Source: Ottowia beijingensis (GTDB lineage Bacteria; Pseudomonadota; Gammaproteobacteria; Burkholderiales; Burkholderiaceae_C). From it: a stretch of 64,000 nucleotides of DNA. A model generated the notes under the pieces. It saw nothing but the letters and a program-made list of their open reading frames with translations, had not been told where the DNA came from and did no database searches. This document shows, one piece after another, positions 1 to 60,266 of the stretch; the first letter of the stretch is position 1; each line of letters opens with the position of its first letter. The position numbers and the translations under genes were made by a program. The stretch is from the NCBI RefSeq assembly GCF_013423955.1, contig NZ_JACCKX010000001.1, positions 3,596,001 through 3,660,000 on the forward strand, written 5' to 3'.

Positions 1-819
1 GGCGACGAGATCACGGCGCTGGTGCTGCGGCATCTGGAGCCGCTCTCCGACGGCGACCGGCAGCAACTGCGCGACTTCGGCGCGCGCCACGGCATCCAGT
101 GGTGGCTGCAGCCCAAGGGGCCGGACACGGTGCACCGGCTGGAAGAGGGCGGCCCGCCGCTCGCGTACGCGCTGCCCGAGTTCGGCATCGCCATGCCGTT
201 CAAGCCGACCGACTTCACCCAGGTCAACCCGCACATCAACCGCGTGCTGGTCACGCGCGCGCTGCGGCTGCTGGGCGCGCAGCGGCACGAGCGCGTGATC
301 GACTGGTTCTGCGGCCTGGGCAACTTCACACTGCCCATTGCCACGCAGGCCGGGCAGGTGCTGGGCGTGGAAGGCAGTGCCGCGCTGGTGGCGCGCGCGC
401 GGCAGAATTGTGAACAAAATCAGGCTTCAGCGCCTGCCCATCAAGCGCTGGCAGCTACTGAATTTGCAGCACGCAACCTGTTCGACATGACCGCCGCGCA
501 ACTGGTGGCCGACGGCACGGCCGACCGCTGGCTGGTCGATCCGCCGCGCGAAGGCGCGTTCGCGCTGGTCAAGGCGCTGGCGGCCATCCACCAGGCGCGC
601 ATCGGCGCCGAGGATGCCGAGCCGCTGCCGCCCGGCGCCGAAGGCTGGCAGCCGCCGCGCCGCATCGTCTACGTCAGCTGCAACCCGGCCACGCTGGCGC
701 GCGATGCCGGCCTGCTGGTGCACCAGGCGGGCTACCGCTGCAGCGCGGCGGGCGTGGTCAACATGTTCCCGCACACCGCGCACGTGGAGAGCATGGCGGT
801 GTTCGACCTGGCCAACTAA
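1..819 (+). CDS. rlmD: 23S rRNA (uracil-1939-C5)-methyltransferase RlmD, 3' part
   Basis: The frame is open from base 1, so the N-terminal part (TRAM domain and Fe-S cysteines in this family) lies outside the window; 272 residues are visible. The S-adenosylmethionine fold is clear: a [11 protein letters not shown] motif I, DPPREGA, and [12 protein letters not shown], which holds the catalytic Cys of the RlmC/RlmD/TrmA family. The enzyme methylates U1939 of 23S rRNA. An extra stretch of about 14 residues ([14 protein letters not shown]) before EFAARNLF is encoded by a copy of the dispersed A repeat (409-470). The gene is convergent with the zinc-ribbon gene 22 bases downstream. The assignment to RlmD rather than RlmC rests on overall similarity in the visible part. 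Confidence 0.93.
409..470. repeat. A-family dispersed repeat inside rlmD
   Basis: AGGCTTCAGCGCCTGCCCAT followed by AAGCGCTGGCAGCTACTGAA has the same layout as the intergenic A copies: GGCT(C)CAGCGC, a short loop, GCGCTGGCAGCTA. Here it lies within the coding sequence and keeps the frame. Confidence 0.75.
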
Positions 820-9403: not shown

Positions 9404-9479
9404 TGTGGGAGCGGGCTTGCCCGCGATCAAGCGTTCGTGGCGACGAGGCGCCTCATCGCGGGCAAGCCCGCTCCCACAA
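9404..9479. repeat. REP pair (REPIN) copy 1
   Basis: Two REP arms in inverted orientation: TGTGGGAGCGGGCTTGCCCG... (9404-9427) and its reverse complement (9455-9479), around a 27-base loop. The loop and arms are identical, in reverse complement, to the copy at 38614-38690. Confidence 0.9.
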
Positions 9480-12131: not shown

Positions 12132-12186
12132 TTTCAAGTCGTTTTGGCCGGCAGCGCCCGTCCAACAAGCGCGAGCAGCTATGTTT
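12132..12186. repeat. A-family dispersed repeat
   Basis: TTTCAAGTCGTTTTGGCCGG, CAGCGCCCGTCCAACAAGCG and CGAGCAGCTATG: a copy in reverse orientation, abutting the REP pair at 12189. A further fragment (CCAGCTATTGAATCAAGAGC) lies at 12309-12330. Confidence 0.75.
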
Positions 12187-12188
12187 TT

Positions 12189-12263
12189 GTAGGATCGGGC
12201 TTGCCCGCGATGCGGCCTCCGCGCGGTGCGATACGCAGCATCGCGGGCAAGCCCGCTCCCACA
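12189..12263. repeat. REP pair (REPIN) copy 2
   Basis: Left arm GTAGGATCGGGCTTGCCCGC (12189-12211, diverged GATC) and right arm ATCGCGGGCAAGCCCGCTCC (12240-12263) around a 28-base loop unlike that of copies 1 and 3. Confidence 0.8.
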
Positions 12264-22215: not shown

Positions 22216-24712
22216 ATGGCGTTCGACGTGCATGAAGGCAGCACCGGGGCAGCGACCCTGCGCTGGCGCGGGCAGGCGCTGGCGGCGGCGCTGGCGGGCT
22301 GGGTGCTGGGCACGGCGCTGCAGTTGCAGCAGGGCGCGCTGTGGCCGGCCGGGCGCTACCTGGCGCTGGCGATGGCCGCTGGCGCCGTGGTGGTGCTGGC
22401 GCTGTGGCATCGGTCGCGCCGCCCGGTGGCTGGCGCGGCGTTGCTGTGGCTGCTGGCGGCGGCGCTGGCCGCGTTCGCCGTCACCGGCGGGCGCGCGCAG
22501 CACCGGCTGGCGCAGCAGCTGGCGCCGGCGCTGGAGGGGCGTGACGTGGTGCTGGTGGGCACCATCGCCCGCATGCCGCAGCGCAGCGCGGTGGGCTGGC
22601 GCTTTCGCTTCGACGTCGACGAGGCGCGGCTCGACGGCGCCGCGGTGCGCCTGCCGCCGCGGGTGCAGCTGGCCTGGTACGGCTCGGTCAGCACGGCCGA
22701 CGAAACCGATGCCGCCCGGCCGCTGGCCGCCGACCTGCGCGCGGGCGACCGCTGGCAGCTCACGGCGCGGCTGAAGGCGCCGCACGGCAACCAGAACCCG
22801 CACGGCTTCGACTACGAGCTGTGGCTGTGGGAGCAGGGCCTGCGCGCCACCGGCTACGTGCGCACCGGCCCGCGCGATACGCCGCCGCGCCGGCTGGCGG
22901 TGGGCGGCTGGTCGGTCGAGCGCTGGCGCCAGTCGGTGCGCGACCGCATCCTGGGCGGTGCCAACGCGCAAGACGCCGACGCGCGGCGCTTTGCCGGCAT
23001 CGTGGCGGCGCTGGTGACGGGCGACCAGAACGTGATCGAGCGCGCCGACTGGGACGTGTTCCGCGCCACCGGCGTGGCGCACCTGATGAGCATCTCCGGC
23101 CTGCACATCACCATGTTCTCGTGGCTCGCTGTGGCGCTGGTGGGGGCGTTGTGGCGGCGGCTGGGGCGCTGGGCCGGCAGCGCGCGCTGGAACCCTGCCT
23201 GTGGCTGCCGGCGCCCACGGCGGCGCTGGTCGGCGGCGTGGCGCTGGCGGCGGGCTACGCGCTGTTCAGCGGCTGGGGCGTGCCGGCGCAGCGCACGGTG
23301 CTGATGCTGGCAACCTTCGCGGGGCTGCGGCTGTCGGGCCTGCGCTGGCCCTGGTGGCTGACCTGGCTGCTGGCCTGCGCCGTGGTGCTGGCGGCGGACC
23401 CGTGGGCGCTGCTGCAGGCCGGGTTCTGGCTCAGCTTCGTCGCGGTGGCGATCCTGTTTGCTACTGATTCAAGAGCTTCTGGCGCCCGTGGGGCGGGCGC
23501 TGGAGGCCAATTTTTCATCAAACTTCTGCGCGAGCAATGGGTGGTCACACTGGCGCTCACGCCGCTGTCGCTGATCCTGTTCGGGCAGGCCTCGGTGGTG
23601 GGCCTGCTGGCAACCTGCTGGCGATTCCGTGGGTGACGCTGCTGGTCACGCCGCTGGCGCTGGCGGGGGTGCTGTGGGCCCCGCTGTGGCAAGCCGCGGG
23701 CTGGGCGCTGGCGCCGCTGGCCTGGGTGCTGCAGGCCCTGGCCGCGTGGCCGTGGGCCAGCGTGCAGATGGCGGCGGCGCCGCTGCTGCCGGGCGTGGCC
23801 GCCGTGGCCGGCGGTGTGCTGCTGGCGCTGCGCTGGCCGTGGCCCTGGCGTCTGGCCGGCGTGCCCCTGCTGCTGCCGCTGCTGCTGTGGCAGCCGGCGC
23901 GCCCGCCCGCGGGCCAGTTCGAGCTGCTGGCGGCCGACGTGGGGCAGGGCAGCGCCGTCGTCGTGCGCACCGCCGGCCACACGCTGCTGTACGACGCCGG
24001 CCCGCGCTATTCGCTGGAGAGCGATGCCGGCCACCGCGTGCTGGTGCCGCTGCTGCGCGCTTTCGGCGAGCGGGTGGACATGCTGCTGCTGAGCCACCGC
24101 GACAGCGACCACGTCGGCGGCGCCCGCGCCATCCTGGCCACGCAGCCGGGGGCCAGCGTGCTGTCGTCCATCGAGGACGACCACGAGCTGCAGGGCACGC
24201 GCCCTGCCATGCGCTGCCAGGCCGGGCAGCAATGGACGTGGGACGGCGTCGAGTTCAGCGTGCTGCACCCCGACGCCGCCGACTACGCCACCGCAGCCAA
24301 GTCCAACGCGCTGAGCTGCGTGCTGCGCGTGCGCGCCGGCGCGCGGGTGGCGCTGCTGGTGGGCGACATCGAGACCGCGCAGGAGCTGCGGCTGGCGGCC
24401 CGCCACGACGACCTGCGCGCCGACGTGCTGCTGGTGCCGCACCATGGCAGCCGCACCTCGTCGTCGGCGCCGTTCATCGACGCCGTGCAGCCGCGCTGGG
24501 CTCTGGTGCAGTCGGGCTACCGCAACCGCTTCGGCCACCCGGCGCCGGCGGTGCTGGCGCGCTATGCCGAGCGCGGGGCGCGGGTGGTCGATTCGCCCCG
24601 TTGTGGTGCCATGCGCTGGCACAGCGGGCGCCCCGACGTGGTGCGCTGCCAGCGCGACGAAGCCCGGCGCTACTGGCACCACGAACCGATGCCGCCCATC
24701 GGCGGGCGCTGA
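22216..24712 (+). CDS. comEC: DNA uptake channel protein ComEC/Rec2 (frame broken)
   Basis: Corrected length 832 residues. Order: two N-terminal membrane helices, an OB-like periplasmic domain (DVVLVGTIARMPQRSAVGW), the competence domain with the signature VAHLMSISGLHITMFSWLA, a polytopic channel region, and a C-terminal metallo-beta-lactamase-like domain (LLAADVGQGSAVVVRT, LLLSHRDSDHVGGARAIL, LLVPHHGSRTS). ComEC carries single-stranded DNA across the inner membrane in transformation. Breaks: 23193-23195 (CCC, four needed) and 23609-23610 (GG, three needed). An A-family repeat at 23458-23526 encodes a loop (ATDSRASGARGAGAGGQFF) between membrane segments. Confidence 0.92.
23458..23526. repeat. 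A-family dispersed repeat inside comEC
   Basis: TTTGCTACTGATTCAAGAGC, TTCTGGCGCCCGTGGGGCGG, GCGCTGGAGGCCAATTTTTC: an almost canonical copy, read in frame through the channel domain. Confidence 0.8.
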
Positions 24713-26337: not shown

Positions 26338-26484
26338 ATGCTGTCCCGCACCGCCGATCATCTCTTCTGGATGTCCCGCTACACCGAGCGGGCTGTTCTG
26401 TCCGCGCCAGCGGACAGGGTGCGCAGCACCACAACACCGCCGCGCGCGCCAGCGCGCCGGGGTTCGAGGCCTTACTGGAACTGA
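26338..26484 (+). pseudogene. Duplicated 5' fragment of the alpha-E gene
   Basis: Bases 26338-26394 repeat the first 57 bases of the alpha-E gene (26488-26544) with two silent differences (GATCAT versus GACCAC). The 48-codon reading frame starts MLSRTADHLFWMSRYTERA, then diverges (VLSAPADRVRSTTTPPRAP) and stops at 26484. The GGAG ribosome site belongs to this fragment, not to the full gene. It looks like a scar of partial duplication or of an insertion after codon 19. Confidence 0.75.
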
Positions 26485-26487
26485 CCC

Positions 26488-27447
26488 ATGCTGTCCCGCA
26501 CCGCCGACCACCTCTTCTGGATGTCCCGCTACACCGAGCGGGCCGAGAACACCGCCCGCATGCTCAGCGTGCACCACGACACCTCGCTGCTGCCGCAGTC
26601 GGCGGCGGTGTCGCAGCTCGGCTGGCTGGGCGTGCTGTCGCTCAGCGAGCTGCTGCCCGCCTATGCCGCGCGGCATGGCGAGGTCACGCCCGAGGGCGTG
26701 ATGCGCTTCATGGTGCTGGACGAGGAGAATCCCGCCTCCATCCTGGCCTGCCTGAAGGCCGCGCGCGAGAACGCCCGCGCCGTGCGCGGCACGCTGACGA
26801 CCGAGGTGTGGGAGACCCTGAACCAGACCTGGCTGGAGGGCCAGCGCCTGGCGCGCGAGGGCCGCTTCGCGCGCGATCCGGCCGAGTTCTTCGAATGGGT
26901 CAAGTTCCGCTCCAACCTGTCGCGCGGCGTCACGCTGGGCACCATGCTGCAGGACGAATCGTTCCACTTCCTGCGCATGGGCACCTTTCTGGAGCGGGCC
27001 GACAACACCGCGCGCATCCTGGACGTGAAGTTCCACGCCGTGGAAAGCGAGTTCTTCGGCAGCGCCAGCGAGCGCGATCTGGAGTACGACTTCTACCACT
27101 GGTCGGCCATCCTGCGCAGCGTCAGCGCGTTCGAGATCTACCGCCGCGTGTACCGCGACGTCATCGTGCCCGAGCGCGTGGCCGAACTGCTGATGCTGCG
27201 CGAGGCCATGCCGCGCTCGCTGCACCACTGCATGAGTGCCGTGATGGACAACCTGCGCCTGGTCGGCGCCGAGCCGCAGGGCGAAACCATGCGCCACGCC
27301 GGCCGCCTGCGCTCGGACCTGCGCTACGGCCACATCGACGAAATCCTGGCGACCGGGCTGCACGCCTTTCTGACGCAGTTCCTCGACCGCGTGAACCAGC
27401 TGGGCGCGCACATCAGCCGCGATTTCCTGGTGCCTTCGTTGGGGTAA
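26488..27447 (+). CDS. Alpha-E domain protein (DUF403)
   Basis: 319 residues, intact, the usual size. It begins MLSRTADHLFWMSRYTERAENTARML, the family hallmark, and continues all-helical with SRGVTLGTMLQDESFHFLRMGTFLERADNTARILDVKFH and an end TQFLDRVNQLGAHISRDFLVP. It follows the stand-alone ATP-grasp gene, with which it would act. In many bacteria this pair is followed by a transglutaminase and a proteasome-type peptidase (Anbu); here the next gene is mltB on the other strand, so that part is absent or elsewhere. Only GGAA precedes the ATG, because the better ribosome site lies before the duplicated fragment. Confidence 0.9.
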   Translation: MLSRTADHLFWMSRYTERAENTARMLSVHHDTSLLPQSAAVSQLGWLGVLSLSELLPAYAARHGEVTPEGVMRFMVLDEENPASILACLKAARENARAVRGTLTTEVWETLNQTWLEGQRLAREGRFARDPAEFFEWVKFRSNLSRGVTLGTMLQDESFHFLRMGTFLERADNTARILDVKFHAVESEFFGSASERDLEYDFYHWSAILRSVSAFEIYRRVYRDVIVPERVAELLMLREAMPRSLHHCMSAVMDNLRLVGAEPQGETMRHAGRLRSDLRYGHIDEILATGLHAFLTQFLDRVNQLGAHISRDFLVPSLG

Positions 27448-33810: not shown

Positions 33811-33873
33811 TTTCAAGCCAGATTGGCCTGTAGCCGGCGTGGATGCTGCGCAGGCAGCTATTGAAAACACAGT
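33811..33873. repeat. A-family dispersed repeat
   Basis: TTTCAAGCCAGATTGGCCTG, TAGCCGGCGTGGATGCTGCG, CAGGCAGCTATTGAAAAC: a reverse-orientation copy just upstream of the crotonase-family gene. Confidence 0.75.
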
Positions 33874-33891
33874 GATCGTGAGGCCTTGAAC

Positions 33892-38613: not shown

Positions 38614-38690
38614 TTGTGGGAGCGGGCTTGCCCGCGATGAGGCGCCTCGTCGCCACGAACGCTTGATCGCGGGCAAGCCCGCTCCCACAA
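38614..38690. repeat. REP pair (REPIN) copy 3, inverted twin of copy 1
   Basis: Arms TTGTGGGAGCGGGCTTGCCC (38614-38638) and its reverse complement (38666-38690), loop 38639-38665. The whole 76-base unit is the exact reverse complement of 9404-9479, including the loop. Confidence 0.9.
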
Positions 38691-39755: not shown

Positions 39756-39816
39756 TGCTGTGACCTCGCGCGCGGCGCCAGCAGGACCTGGCAGGGCGGC
39801 GCAATGCCCCTGTGGT

Positions 39817-39889
39817 GTGGGAGCGCGCTTGCCCGCGATGGGCGCGTCCGCCGCATCACCGCCCCATCGCGGGCAAGCCCGCTCCCACA
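39817..39889. repeat. REP pair (REPIN) copy 4
   Basis: GTGGGAGCGCGCTTGCCCGC (39817-39839, one change in the core) and ATCGCGGGCAAGCCCGCTCC (39866-39889) around a 26-base loop. Confidence 0.85.
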
Positions 39890-50727: not shown

Positions 50728-50795
50728 TTTTGATCAAAGAAAAATGCTCTGGCGCCCAATAGATGGGCGCAAGCAGCTATTAATTTCATTTCGTC
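50728..50795. repeat. A-family dispersed repeat
   Basis: TTTTTTGATCAAAGAAAAAT, GCTCTGGCGCCCAATAGATG, GGCGCAAGCAGCTATTAATT: near-canonical, between convergent DUF1854 and eptA genes. Confidence 0.85.
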
Positions 50796-50991: not shown

Positions 50992-52685
50992 TCAGGCCGC
51001 GCCCGCGTGGCAACTGGTGAACACATCGCGCCCCGCGTCGTGCACCTGGGTCTGCACGCCCAGCAGCCCCAGTGTGGAATGGAAATAGTGGTCGTGCGAC
51101 AGCTGCTCGTCGCGCTGCCGCGCCAGGCAGCCCTGCGTGATGTGGTGCTGCTGCTCGAACGTGGGTGAGAGCCAGAAGATCCACGGCACGTGCTTCTGCG
51201 CATCGGGCGCAAAGCGGTAAGGCAGGCCGTGCAGGTACAGGTTGTTCTCGCCCAGCGATTCGCCATGGTCCGACAGGTATTCCATCGCCGGCGCCCAGGC
51301 GCCCTCGTGCTGCTTCAGCCATCCGATGGTCGAGGCCAGGAAGTGGTCGGTGTAGAGGAGGGTGTTGTCGTACGCGTTCACCACCTGCTCGCGCGGGCAC
51401 TGCTGCAGCGCATTGGTGGTGCACTCGGCCATGAACTGCTTGAAGCCGGTCGGCGTGCGCCTGTAGTACGCCGGGCCGTGGCTGCCCATCTGGTGCATGA
51501 ACACCACCACGCCGCGCGCGCGCCGCTCGGCCGGCAGCTGGGCAATGCGCTCGTCCAGCCCGCGCAGCATCACCTCGTCGAAGCACTCGTCGTCGGCGCA
51601 CAGGTCGGCGCCGTTGGCCTGCAGCTGTTTGTAGTCCACCTTGGGCACGCGGTCGCACACGCCCTTGCAGCCGCCGGGCTGGTTGTCGAGCCACAGCACC
51701 GCCAGGCCGGCGCGCTGCAGCACGTCCACCAGGCCTTCGGTGTTGGTCTGGCGGTTCTCGAAGGCTTCGCGCCCCAGGTTGGAGAACATGCACGGGACCG
51801 AGGCGGCGGTGTTGGTGCCGCACGACCAGACGTTGCGCAGGCTCACCACGCGCTCCTGCGCCAGGCGCGGCGTGGTGTCGCGCGCGTAGCCGTTCAGGCC
51901 GATGTGGTCGGCGCGCGCCGTCTCGCCCAGCACCATGATCAACAGCGGCGGCCTGGCGCCCGCTGCCAGCGCGGGCAGGTGCGCGTCTTCACCCAGCGGC
52001 GCCACGGCCACGCCGCTGCGCTGGATCGGCTTGCGCCCCATGATGGCCAGCGCGTAGAACGAATTGAGCGGGTTGACCAGATAGCGCAGCTGCGTGTGGT
52101 TGCGCATGGTGGCTGAAAAATCCTGAAAGAAAATGCCTCCAGCGCCCGCCAGTACGGCGCAGGAAGCTATCAATAAAATAGCGTTCTGACCCGTCTGTCG
52201 CAGCGGCGTGGCCCAGCGCAGCGGCGTGCGCCACAGCAGCGCCAGCGGCAGCGCACCCAGCAGCAGCAAGGCGCCCAGCATGCGCCAGCTCAGCAGCTCG
52301 CGCGCCTCGCGCGTGTCGGTCAGCAGCACGTTGACCATCATGGTGCGGTCGATCACCACGCCGTAGGTCAGCATGAAATACGCACCGACCGCGGCCGACA
52401 GCAGCACCAGCGCCAGCACCGGCGAGCGTCCAGCGCCAGGCCAGCAGGCTGAGCAGCGCCACGTGCACGGCGGCAATCATGACGCCGAAGGCGATGCCGA
52501 AGGCCAGCCCGCGGCCGTTGGCCAGCTCCGGCAGCCCCGCCAGCGCGCGCCACAGCGCCAGGTTGGCGATGCTGGCGATCCACAGCGCGGCCAAGATGAT
52601 CGCGGTGGCGGGCCGCAGGGCGCCGCGGGGTGGGCGTGTCAGGGGCCGGGCTCGGCCCAGGTGGGGATGCGGAATTGGCCAGCAT
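50992..52685 (-). CDS. eptA: Phosphoethanolamine-lipid A transferase EptA (frame broken)
   Basis: Corrected length about 565 residues. Five N-terminal membrane helices, then a periplasmic sulfatase-fold domain: VLGETARADHIGLNGYARDTTP (Glu zinc ligand), WSCGTNTAASVPCMFS (Thr nucleophile), EYLSDHGESLGENNLYLHGLPY (Asp and His ligands). It adds phosphoethanolamine to lipid A and can lower polymyxin sensitivity. The first 90 codons are shifted twice, each time by two bases: near 52430 and at 52627-52630 (four G where six fit). The segment AILLIASCAVLAGAGGIFF in a membrane helix is encoded by an A repeat. Start ATG 52685. Confidence 0.87.
52106..52180. repeat. A-family dispersed repeat inside eptA
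   Basis: On the minus strand: TTTTATTGATAGCTTCCTGC, CGGGCGCTGGAGGCATTTTC, TTTCAGGATTTTTC. It is read in frame as part of the last membrane helix before the catalytic domain. Confidence 0.8.
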
Positions 52686-60117: not shown

Positions 60118-60130
60118 GATTTTGCTTCTG

Positions 60131-60185
60131 TGTTGATAGCTGCTGGCGCTTGATGGGCGCCGGTTGCAGCCGGATTTGATTGAGA
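60131..60185. repeat. A-family dispersed repeat
   Basis: TTGATAGCTGCTGGCGCTTG, ATGGGCGCCGGTTGCAGCC, GGATTTGATTGAGAAAG, 14 bases upstream of the FKBP start codon. Confidence 0.8.
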
Positions 60186-60266
60186 AAGAAAAGGCGGCCA
60201 TGTGCCGCCTGTGAAAACAGGGGGAAGGGCGCCGGCCAGGCCTGCGCATTCACCCCTGGGGTTCGA

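Follow-up and report, generated by a model that had tools for sequence, protein, structure and literature searches.

A copy of a dispersed repeat of about 66 bp is read in frame within an eptA-type gene of Ottowia beijingensis, where it encodes most of the membrane helix preceding the catalytic domain, and the helix is older than the copy, which seems to have overwritten it instead of adding it. We favor, with a probability of about 0.45, the reading that an older helix was overwritten in this way and that two versions of the segment then spread mainly by short-tract recombination and loss.

The eptA Gene and the Repeat Copy It Carries

The window, i.e., the whole stretch of 64,000 nucleotides that was analysed (contig NZ_JACCKX010000001.1, positions 3,596,001 to 3,660,000), contains a frame of 494 aa (Table 1) in which a membrane domain is followed by a catalytic domain of sulfatase fold. 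PF08019 (EptA_B_N) matches its residues 19-144 (140.4 bits, cut-off 22.3) and PF00884 its residues 177-474 (185.2 bits, cut-off 25); the NCBIfam domain model NF028537 scores 523.1 bits, above its cut-off of 500, and the Neisseria EptA structure (PDB 5FGN) is matched with an E value of 1.2e-90. Judging from these matches, the host gene is a member of the EptA/MCR-type phosphoethanolamine transferases. The NCBIfam EptA equivalog NF008619 stays below its cut-off (491.4 vs 660 bits) with this frame, which is devoid of the N-terminal part: the first 68 positions of NF028537 are missing from it, and what appears to be the N-terminal part lies in another reading frame. The eptA of relatives is a single longer open frame, unlike the gene of the window. 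The 5′ frame break (at about 52429-52612) means that the gene is broken either in the assembly or in the organism itself.

The repeat tract falls inside the PF08019 match. On the minus strand, 52120-52185 encodes residues 98-119 (NAILLIASCAVLAGAGGIFFQD), and 52126-52182 translates to AILLIASCAVLAGAGGIFF, residues 99-117 of the ORF 50992-52476. A covariance model of the repeat (R1), built from 29 other copies with the eptA copy excluded, recovers this copy with an E value of 1.1e-15 within the DNA scanned; over positions 1-54, it agrees at 41 of 54 positions with a consensus drawn from 54 other copies, exactly as the median copy does. In 20,000 synonymous redraws of the 22 codons according to the codon usage of the gene, the observed repeat score was never reached, and the third-position GC content is 0.50 in the tract vs 0.93 in the gene. 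The codons of the tract fit the repeat far better than its amino acids demand. Moreover, searching the entire genome at the DNA level gave 25 other places that match part of the eptA stretch (E ≤ 1e-3). The original prediction of a repeat read in frame in EptA at 52106-52180 is thus borne out by the R1 score and by the codon resampling, its interval overrunning the repeat by 14-20 nt at the low-coordinate end.

Table 1. Position of the eptA frames and of the repeat copies in the window, and loci with in-frame copies in other genes
Feature	Position in the window, or locus	Strand	Score or basis
EptA-type phosphoethanolamine--lipid A transferase frame, 494 aa	50992..52476	-	Pfam, NCBIfam and 5FGN matches
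Apparent N-terminal part of eptA, other reading frame (frame break), ends approximate	52429..52612	-	Three-frame translation by eye
In-frame repeat copy in eptA, model positions 1-66 (best 4-57)	52120..52185	-	R1 66.9 bits; codon resampling
In-frame repeat copy in RumA/RlmD-type methyltransferase frame (rumA), residues 136-158, antisense frame	408..473	-	55.2 bits; PF05958
Repeat copy, no spanning ORF ≥120 aa	4496..4561	+	66.4 bits
Repeat copy, no spanning ORF ≥120 aa	8002..8067	+	60.4 bits
Repeat copy	12132..12196	-	46.5 bits
Repeat copy; scanned ORF over it without Pfam match	23457..23522	+	67.3 bits
Weaker repeat copy	33811..33876	-	39.3 bits
Repeat copy downstream of eptA	50730..50795	-	43.0 bits
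Repeat copy, apparently just upstream of FKBP-type isomerase gene	60121..60186	+	49.0 bits
In-frame repeat in dapF	L103		
In-frame repeat in thiL	L093		
In-frame repeat in ligD	L092		
In-frame repeat in rlmJ	L007		
In-frame repeat in E2 gene	L091		
In-frame repeat in aldehyde dehydrogenase family gene	L095		
In-frame repeat in aminotransferase gene	L111		

The Repeat Family

R1 matches the genome at least 150 times, 6 of the 150 scored matches being on three small, apparently redundant contigs. These contigs (C2, C3, and C4 of G000) have equal repeat scores, 73.5 and 60.4 bits each, which suggests that they are near-duplicates of one another. The 31 aligned copies, the eptA copy included, are 66 nt long each and align without gaps. 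Their core motif, ATAGCT-GCGC-GCGGGCGCT, is strongly conserved; the family also has a conserved 3′ end, GGCTTGAAA, which eptA lacks. A match in a signal-peptide region (L079:1199-1264) lies under the score threshold of 25 and was excluded from R1. The consensus fold is weak, with 6 predicted pairs over 66 columns, -2.5 kcal/mol, and 0 compensatory changes; no Rfam family matches anywhere in the window, and the GC content of the window copies is 0.42-0.56. At E ≤ 1e-6, the repeat was detected in 20 of the 29 genus genomes and, within the family, in 7 of 10 selected genomes. In the order, R1 matched 2 of 150 genomes, both from the family of the window, at E ≤ 1e-8, a stricter filter that loses weak matches.

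Other repeats occur in the same window. Inverted pairs resembling TGTGGGAGCGGGCTTGCCCGCGAT are found at 9404-9478, 12188-12263, 38615-38689, and 39816-39889; they look like REP of the Pseudomonas type. There is also a 56-nt direct repeat (26338-26393 and 26488-26543), the copies of which are 96% identical, stand 150 bases apart, and both start with ATGCTGTCC.

Helix Residues Were Replaced, Not Added

In an AlphaFold model obtained with 12 sequences, a single helix (residues 91-126) spans the tract, at a modest confidence (block-mean pLDDT of 58, 60, and 54); this model was used, the mean pLDDT of the single-sequence model being only 40.2. Together with the in-frame copy, it agrees with what had been predicted, namely that the repeat encodes most of the helix preceding the catalytic domain. 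Across this helix, the window protein aligns gaplessly to 5FGN and to MCR-1, the alignments of relatives show 0 gaps among the EptA sequences that cover the helix in the right frame, and indels are found in 0 of the 12 Ottowia orthologs tested. This rules out added residues in EptA: since the helix is gapless across homologues, the repeat replaced codons and some residues, and added none. In most relatives, the DNA of the helix shows no detectable similarity to the repeat. The mean hydropathy of the helices that bear the repeat (2.09-2.73) does not stand out from that of 92 relatives without it (mean 2.37, sd 0.34).

The idea that the repeat supplied the helix is not supported, the helix being ungapped to 5FGN and MCR-1 and repeat-less in most relatives. 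The original prediction had asked whether, relative to species without the repeat, the residues are replaced or added; they are replaced, with no change of length in EptA. It had also named two observations that would speak against it. One of them, a homologous helix encoded by unrelated DNA in most relatives, is what we observed; the other, the lack of statistical similarity to the repeat at the nucleotide level, is contradicted by the E value and the resampling given above.

Distribution of the Tract among EptA Loci

EptA searches gave matches in 139 of 200 genomes of the family and in 17 of 29 genomes of the genus, and 12 more loci came from genome contigs. Among the family matches listed, 90 were read as DNA (30 loci plus 60 fetched), the weaker ones being left out. 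The 118 EptA loci examined comprise 107 with a usable motif (11 without) and 101 distinct ones, the duplicates L055, L056, L057, L061, L062, and L166 having been dropped before counting. Repeat-like DNA (score >15) lies in the helix of 9 of these 101 distinct loci, which belong to four genera: L009 (the window gene), L044, L010, L046, L043, and L040 in Ottowia, and L119, L013, and L017, one in each of three other genera. In all nine bearers, the tract is at the same site (offset 0), in the same frame, and on the same strand.

Codon resampling was applied to 14 EptA genes. The observed score was reached in 0 of 20,000 draws for each of the nine bearers and in 4 of 20,000 for L024, from the genus of L013; the results are not significant for L122 (689), L015 (2064, with a repeat score of -1.1), L039 (12,290), and L049 (13,534). 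A chance likeness between a hydrophobic helix and the repeat could be imagined because the preferred codons for IASCALLAG resemble the GC-rich half of the repeat, as in L015; the contrast between the nine genes and L015 in these resamplings leads us to reject it, its probability being practically negligible.

The Ottowia bearers do not form one clade, and L010, L044, and L046 do group together. On a tree of 90 EptA genes, which omits L013 through the motif filter, the presence of the repeat needs 6 changes, vs a mean of 7.8 and a minimum of 6 after shuffling; the clustering of the bearers is thus weak and the presence scattered.

A repeat-like tract was also seen at a second site of eptA in another genus (G085 and G187), antisense and just before the DHGES motif. 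It lies at L115:1110-1175 (coding orientation) and at the corresponding site of L121, with scores of 36.0 and 31.8, neither of which was reached in 5000 synonymous draws.

Divergence of the Tract and of the Rest of the Gene

Of the other 18 EptA matches in the genus, 12 entered the comparisons of tract identity and of drift, L048 and L050-L054 having been left out for their lower identity or lack of the helix. L039, the sister of the window gene, is the closest relative found. Outside the tract, the two share 89% identity, and 91% in either flank of 18 codons, vs 56% in the 18-codon tract, which is the lowest of 410 windows. With L044, which belongs to the other clade, L009 shares 81% identity outside the tract and 91% inside, and the same codon is used at 14 of the 14 shared amino acids. 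Between the two, AT-ending codons are kept in 8 of 8 cases in the tract vs 6 of 22 elsewhere, with a p value of 3e-5 that is optimistic since L044 is the best retained of the 12 relatives. The helix evolves fast without the repeat too, L045 and L047 being 74% identical in the tract and 90% elsewhere.

Drift was simulated with a per-nucleotide null, using the base-change rates of each pair, at the 1% level. Four of the 12 EptA orthologs lie above expectation and 6 below, L040 and L049 being between; these counts are indicative only, as the null borrows its rates from the rest of the gene. With a whole-codon null, which we judged too harsh and to which we preferred the per-nucleotide one, L044, L046, and L010 remain above expectation (0, 1, and 0 of 3000); L043 gives 38 of 3000. 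Simple vertical decay is a poor fit, both tails of the drift test being populated; indeed, one event followed by neutral decay should give a single mode.

The tracts were also compared with 94 repeats sampled from four genomes, a minority of the copies, in which those of the other genomes are the best-scoring ones. The L009 tract differs from that of L044 by 5 mismatches of 51, and from each of the 94 sampled repeats by at least 11; the L044 tract is at least 11 mismatches away from 20 repeats of its own genome. This distance of 11 is about the usual spacing among repeats, since the median nearest-neighbour distance in the sample is 10 mismatches. For L009 and L044, and for that pair only, these distances support shared ancestry or exchange of the tract. 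The nearest eptA tract to L046, L010, and L043 is at 13, 13, and 15 mismatches, and the nearest sampled repeat at 12, 14, and 15; exchange from eptA to eptA is therefore not favored over copying from the repeat pool for these three. The codon GTA occupies positions 31-33 in 6 of the 9 eptA tracts vs 2 of the 94 repeats, the nine tracts not being independent of one another, and this sharing may come in part from a conserved valine.

The Same Repeat in Other Genes

Among the at least 150 copies of the genome, 60 were examined with their context, and Pfam was run on 20 ORFs that span a copy. Besides EptA, in-gene copies are carried by LigD (in an interdomain linker), a class I/II aminotransferase, ThiL, DapF, RumA/RlmD, the 2-oxoacid dehydrogenase E2 (in a linker), an aldehyde dehydrogenase family protein, and RlmJ. 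The FKBP, SDR, and AIRS N-terminal matches, which look like upstream DNA within long ORFs, were not counted as in-gene, nor were the DUF2145 and third LigD matches, which lie outside the matched domain. Six of the 9 host genes read the repeat in its antisense frame (KxNQxPAPASQAQAAI), where stops are rarest (14 of 54 copies). The hydrophobic sense frame (xLIAxxALLAGAGGxF), in which 23 of 54 copies have stops, is the one read in EptA, ThiL, and the aminotransferase.

The repeat sites of DapF, RumA, and ThiL are common to orthologs across the genus. In DapF, the tract contains an indel in 7 of 17 orthologs, and five orthologs that have no repeat are shorter at this place by 10-17 aa, so that an insertion is likely in this gene. 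Tract indels are found in 5 of 25 RumA and 4 of 21 ThiL orthologs, most being equal in length; for ThiL, 21 of 27 other loci were used, and the fragments or split matches L241-L246 were left out, of which L241 and L246 score 55.1. The drift test on gap-free orthologs places 12 of 20 above expectation and 4 below in RumA, 8 of 17 above and 4 below in ThiL, and 4 of 10 above and 1 below in DapF. In these three genes, the higher retention of AT-ending codons depends on the choice of repeat-bearing orthologs; with all RumA orthologs taken together, it does not clearly exceed the rest.

It is conceivable, if somewhat doubtful, that the in-gene repeat behaves as a self-maintaining, exchangeable cassette, the helix or loop segments of the conserved enzymes EptA, RumA, ThiL, and DapF being kept as the repeat, or rewritten to it, by recombination. 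Were it so, conservation would be stronger in the DNA of the repeat than in the encoded amino acids.

Origin and Spread of the eptA Tract

In the reading that we favor, a copy of this family-restricted, high-copy repeat would have overwritten the helix codons with the length unchanged. Such an overwriting would have been tolerated because the sense frame is hydrophobic enough, the plain helix of L039 sharing 9 of 18 residues with it, and it was presumably neutral for the function of the enzyme. The helix segment would have existed thereafter in two versions, repeat-type and plain, and its patchy spread would result mainly from short-tract recombination, with the eptA genes of related bacteria as the most likely partners, plus loss. 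Short-tract exchange or conversion would account for the divergence data better than one insertion followed by neutral decay; the clade formed by L010, L044, and L046 suits inheritance and counts against exchange. A single ancient overwriting or insertion, inherited vertically and eroded neutrally at differing speeds, would indeed explain this clade, the common site and frame in four genera, the nearness of the L009 and L044 tracts and the GTA codon common to 6 of the 9 tracts, as well as the sites shared by the DapF, RumA, and ThiL orthologs. We nevertheless hold it to be unlikely, since the scores of EptA, RumA, ThiL, and DapF are two-tailed instead of being centred on drift and since the sharp difference between L009 and L039 is confined to the tract. 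Slightly less probable again is that each lineage converted its own eptA from its own repeat pool, guided by the resemblance of the IASCAVLAG codons to the repeat. Such conversion would suit the way in which repeat-less lineages stand between the repeat-bearing ones, the 98 to at least 150 copies in the genomes of the five stronger Ottowia bearers, and the distances of the L046, L010, and L043 tracts, which are much the same to sampled repeats and to other eptA tracts. It is opposed by the L009-L044 distance, which is well under that to any sampled repeat (5 vs at least 11), by the two genomes (G113 and G042) whose eptA carries the tract with only 4 and 5 repeat matches genome-wide, and by four others (G202, G211, G216, and G223) that are rich in repeats (80 to 149 copies), yet have plain eptA helices.

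The repeat could also be a functional DNA or RNA site, such as a protein-binding site or an mRNA element, with the tract under selection at the DNA level. The above-drift retention in EptA, RumA, ThiL, and DapF (4/12, 12/20, 8/17, and 4/10) and the conserved core motif point in this direction; we regard it as quite improbable given that several repeat-carrying genomes have no repeat in eptA, that the consensus fold is weak, and that Rfam gives no match in the window. Finally, eptA itself might be the source, the repeat family having descended from the helix segment, as the presence of the tract at this site in genera that hold very few repeats (those of G113 and G042) would allow. This is very improbable, the conserved 3′ end of the family being missing from eptA and the helix being without detectable repeat similarity in most relatives.

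Comparison with Known Systems

The cited papers describe dispersed repeats that code for protein as inserts or fusions, as far as their available text goes (PMC2229807, PMC2759123). According to that text, the Rickettsia palindromic elements (RPE) are dispersed short repeats found in frame in conserved genes and tolerated by the proteins; they are inserts of 105-146 bp with long stem-loops (PMC2229807). Like them, the Ottowia repeat is in frame in several conserved genes (EptA, LigD, aminotransferase, ThiL, DapF, RumA, E2, aldehyde dehydrogenase family, and RlmJ). Unlike them, it is about 66 bp long and weakly palindromic, with 6 predicted pairs and no long stem-loop, and it adds no residues in EptA. 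Among the literature matches listed, which largely leave aside subscription journals, we found no other account of this family; by analogy, it may be said to resemble RPE, and no match to a described family was found.

A beta-proteobacterial repeat element (BRE) has been reported in Comamonadaceae among others (Hot et al. 2011, PMC3110155). In the available part of that report, BRE is about 90 bp long and usually intergenic, some copies being wholly within coding sequence, and its GC content is 63.7-78.9% in Bordetella, with no figure for Comamonadaceae. The Ottowia window copies, in contrast, are about 66 bp long with 42-56% GC, below the Bordetella range. The two differ in length and in GC content, and they might nevertheless be related.

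The original prediction had called a repeat that supplies a structural helix unusual, which is fair, though there is a precedent. In enterobacterial ERIC/RU-1f fusions, a hydrophobic frame of the repeat gives predicted transmembrane segments (Delihas 2007, PMC2759123), just as the hydrophobic frame of the Ottowia repeat forms a predicted membrane helix. In the text available, these fusions are mostly small loci and no repeats are reported within the conserved domains of superfamily proteins (PMC2759123), whereas the Ottowia tract lies inside a conserved PF08019 match. Compared with the other EptA/MCR-type transferases, too, repeat-type DNA in the pre-catalytic helix is particular to 9 of 101 distinct loci. 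In EptA, the repeat overlies a membrane helix that is part of a conserved domain, with the length unchanged, and several core enzymes carry the same repeat at sites shared across the genus. Gene by gene, one can thus examine whether such a repeat owes its persistence to recombination or to selection acting on the DNA, and how freely the amino acids of a membrane helix may vary.
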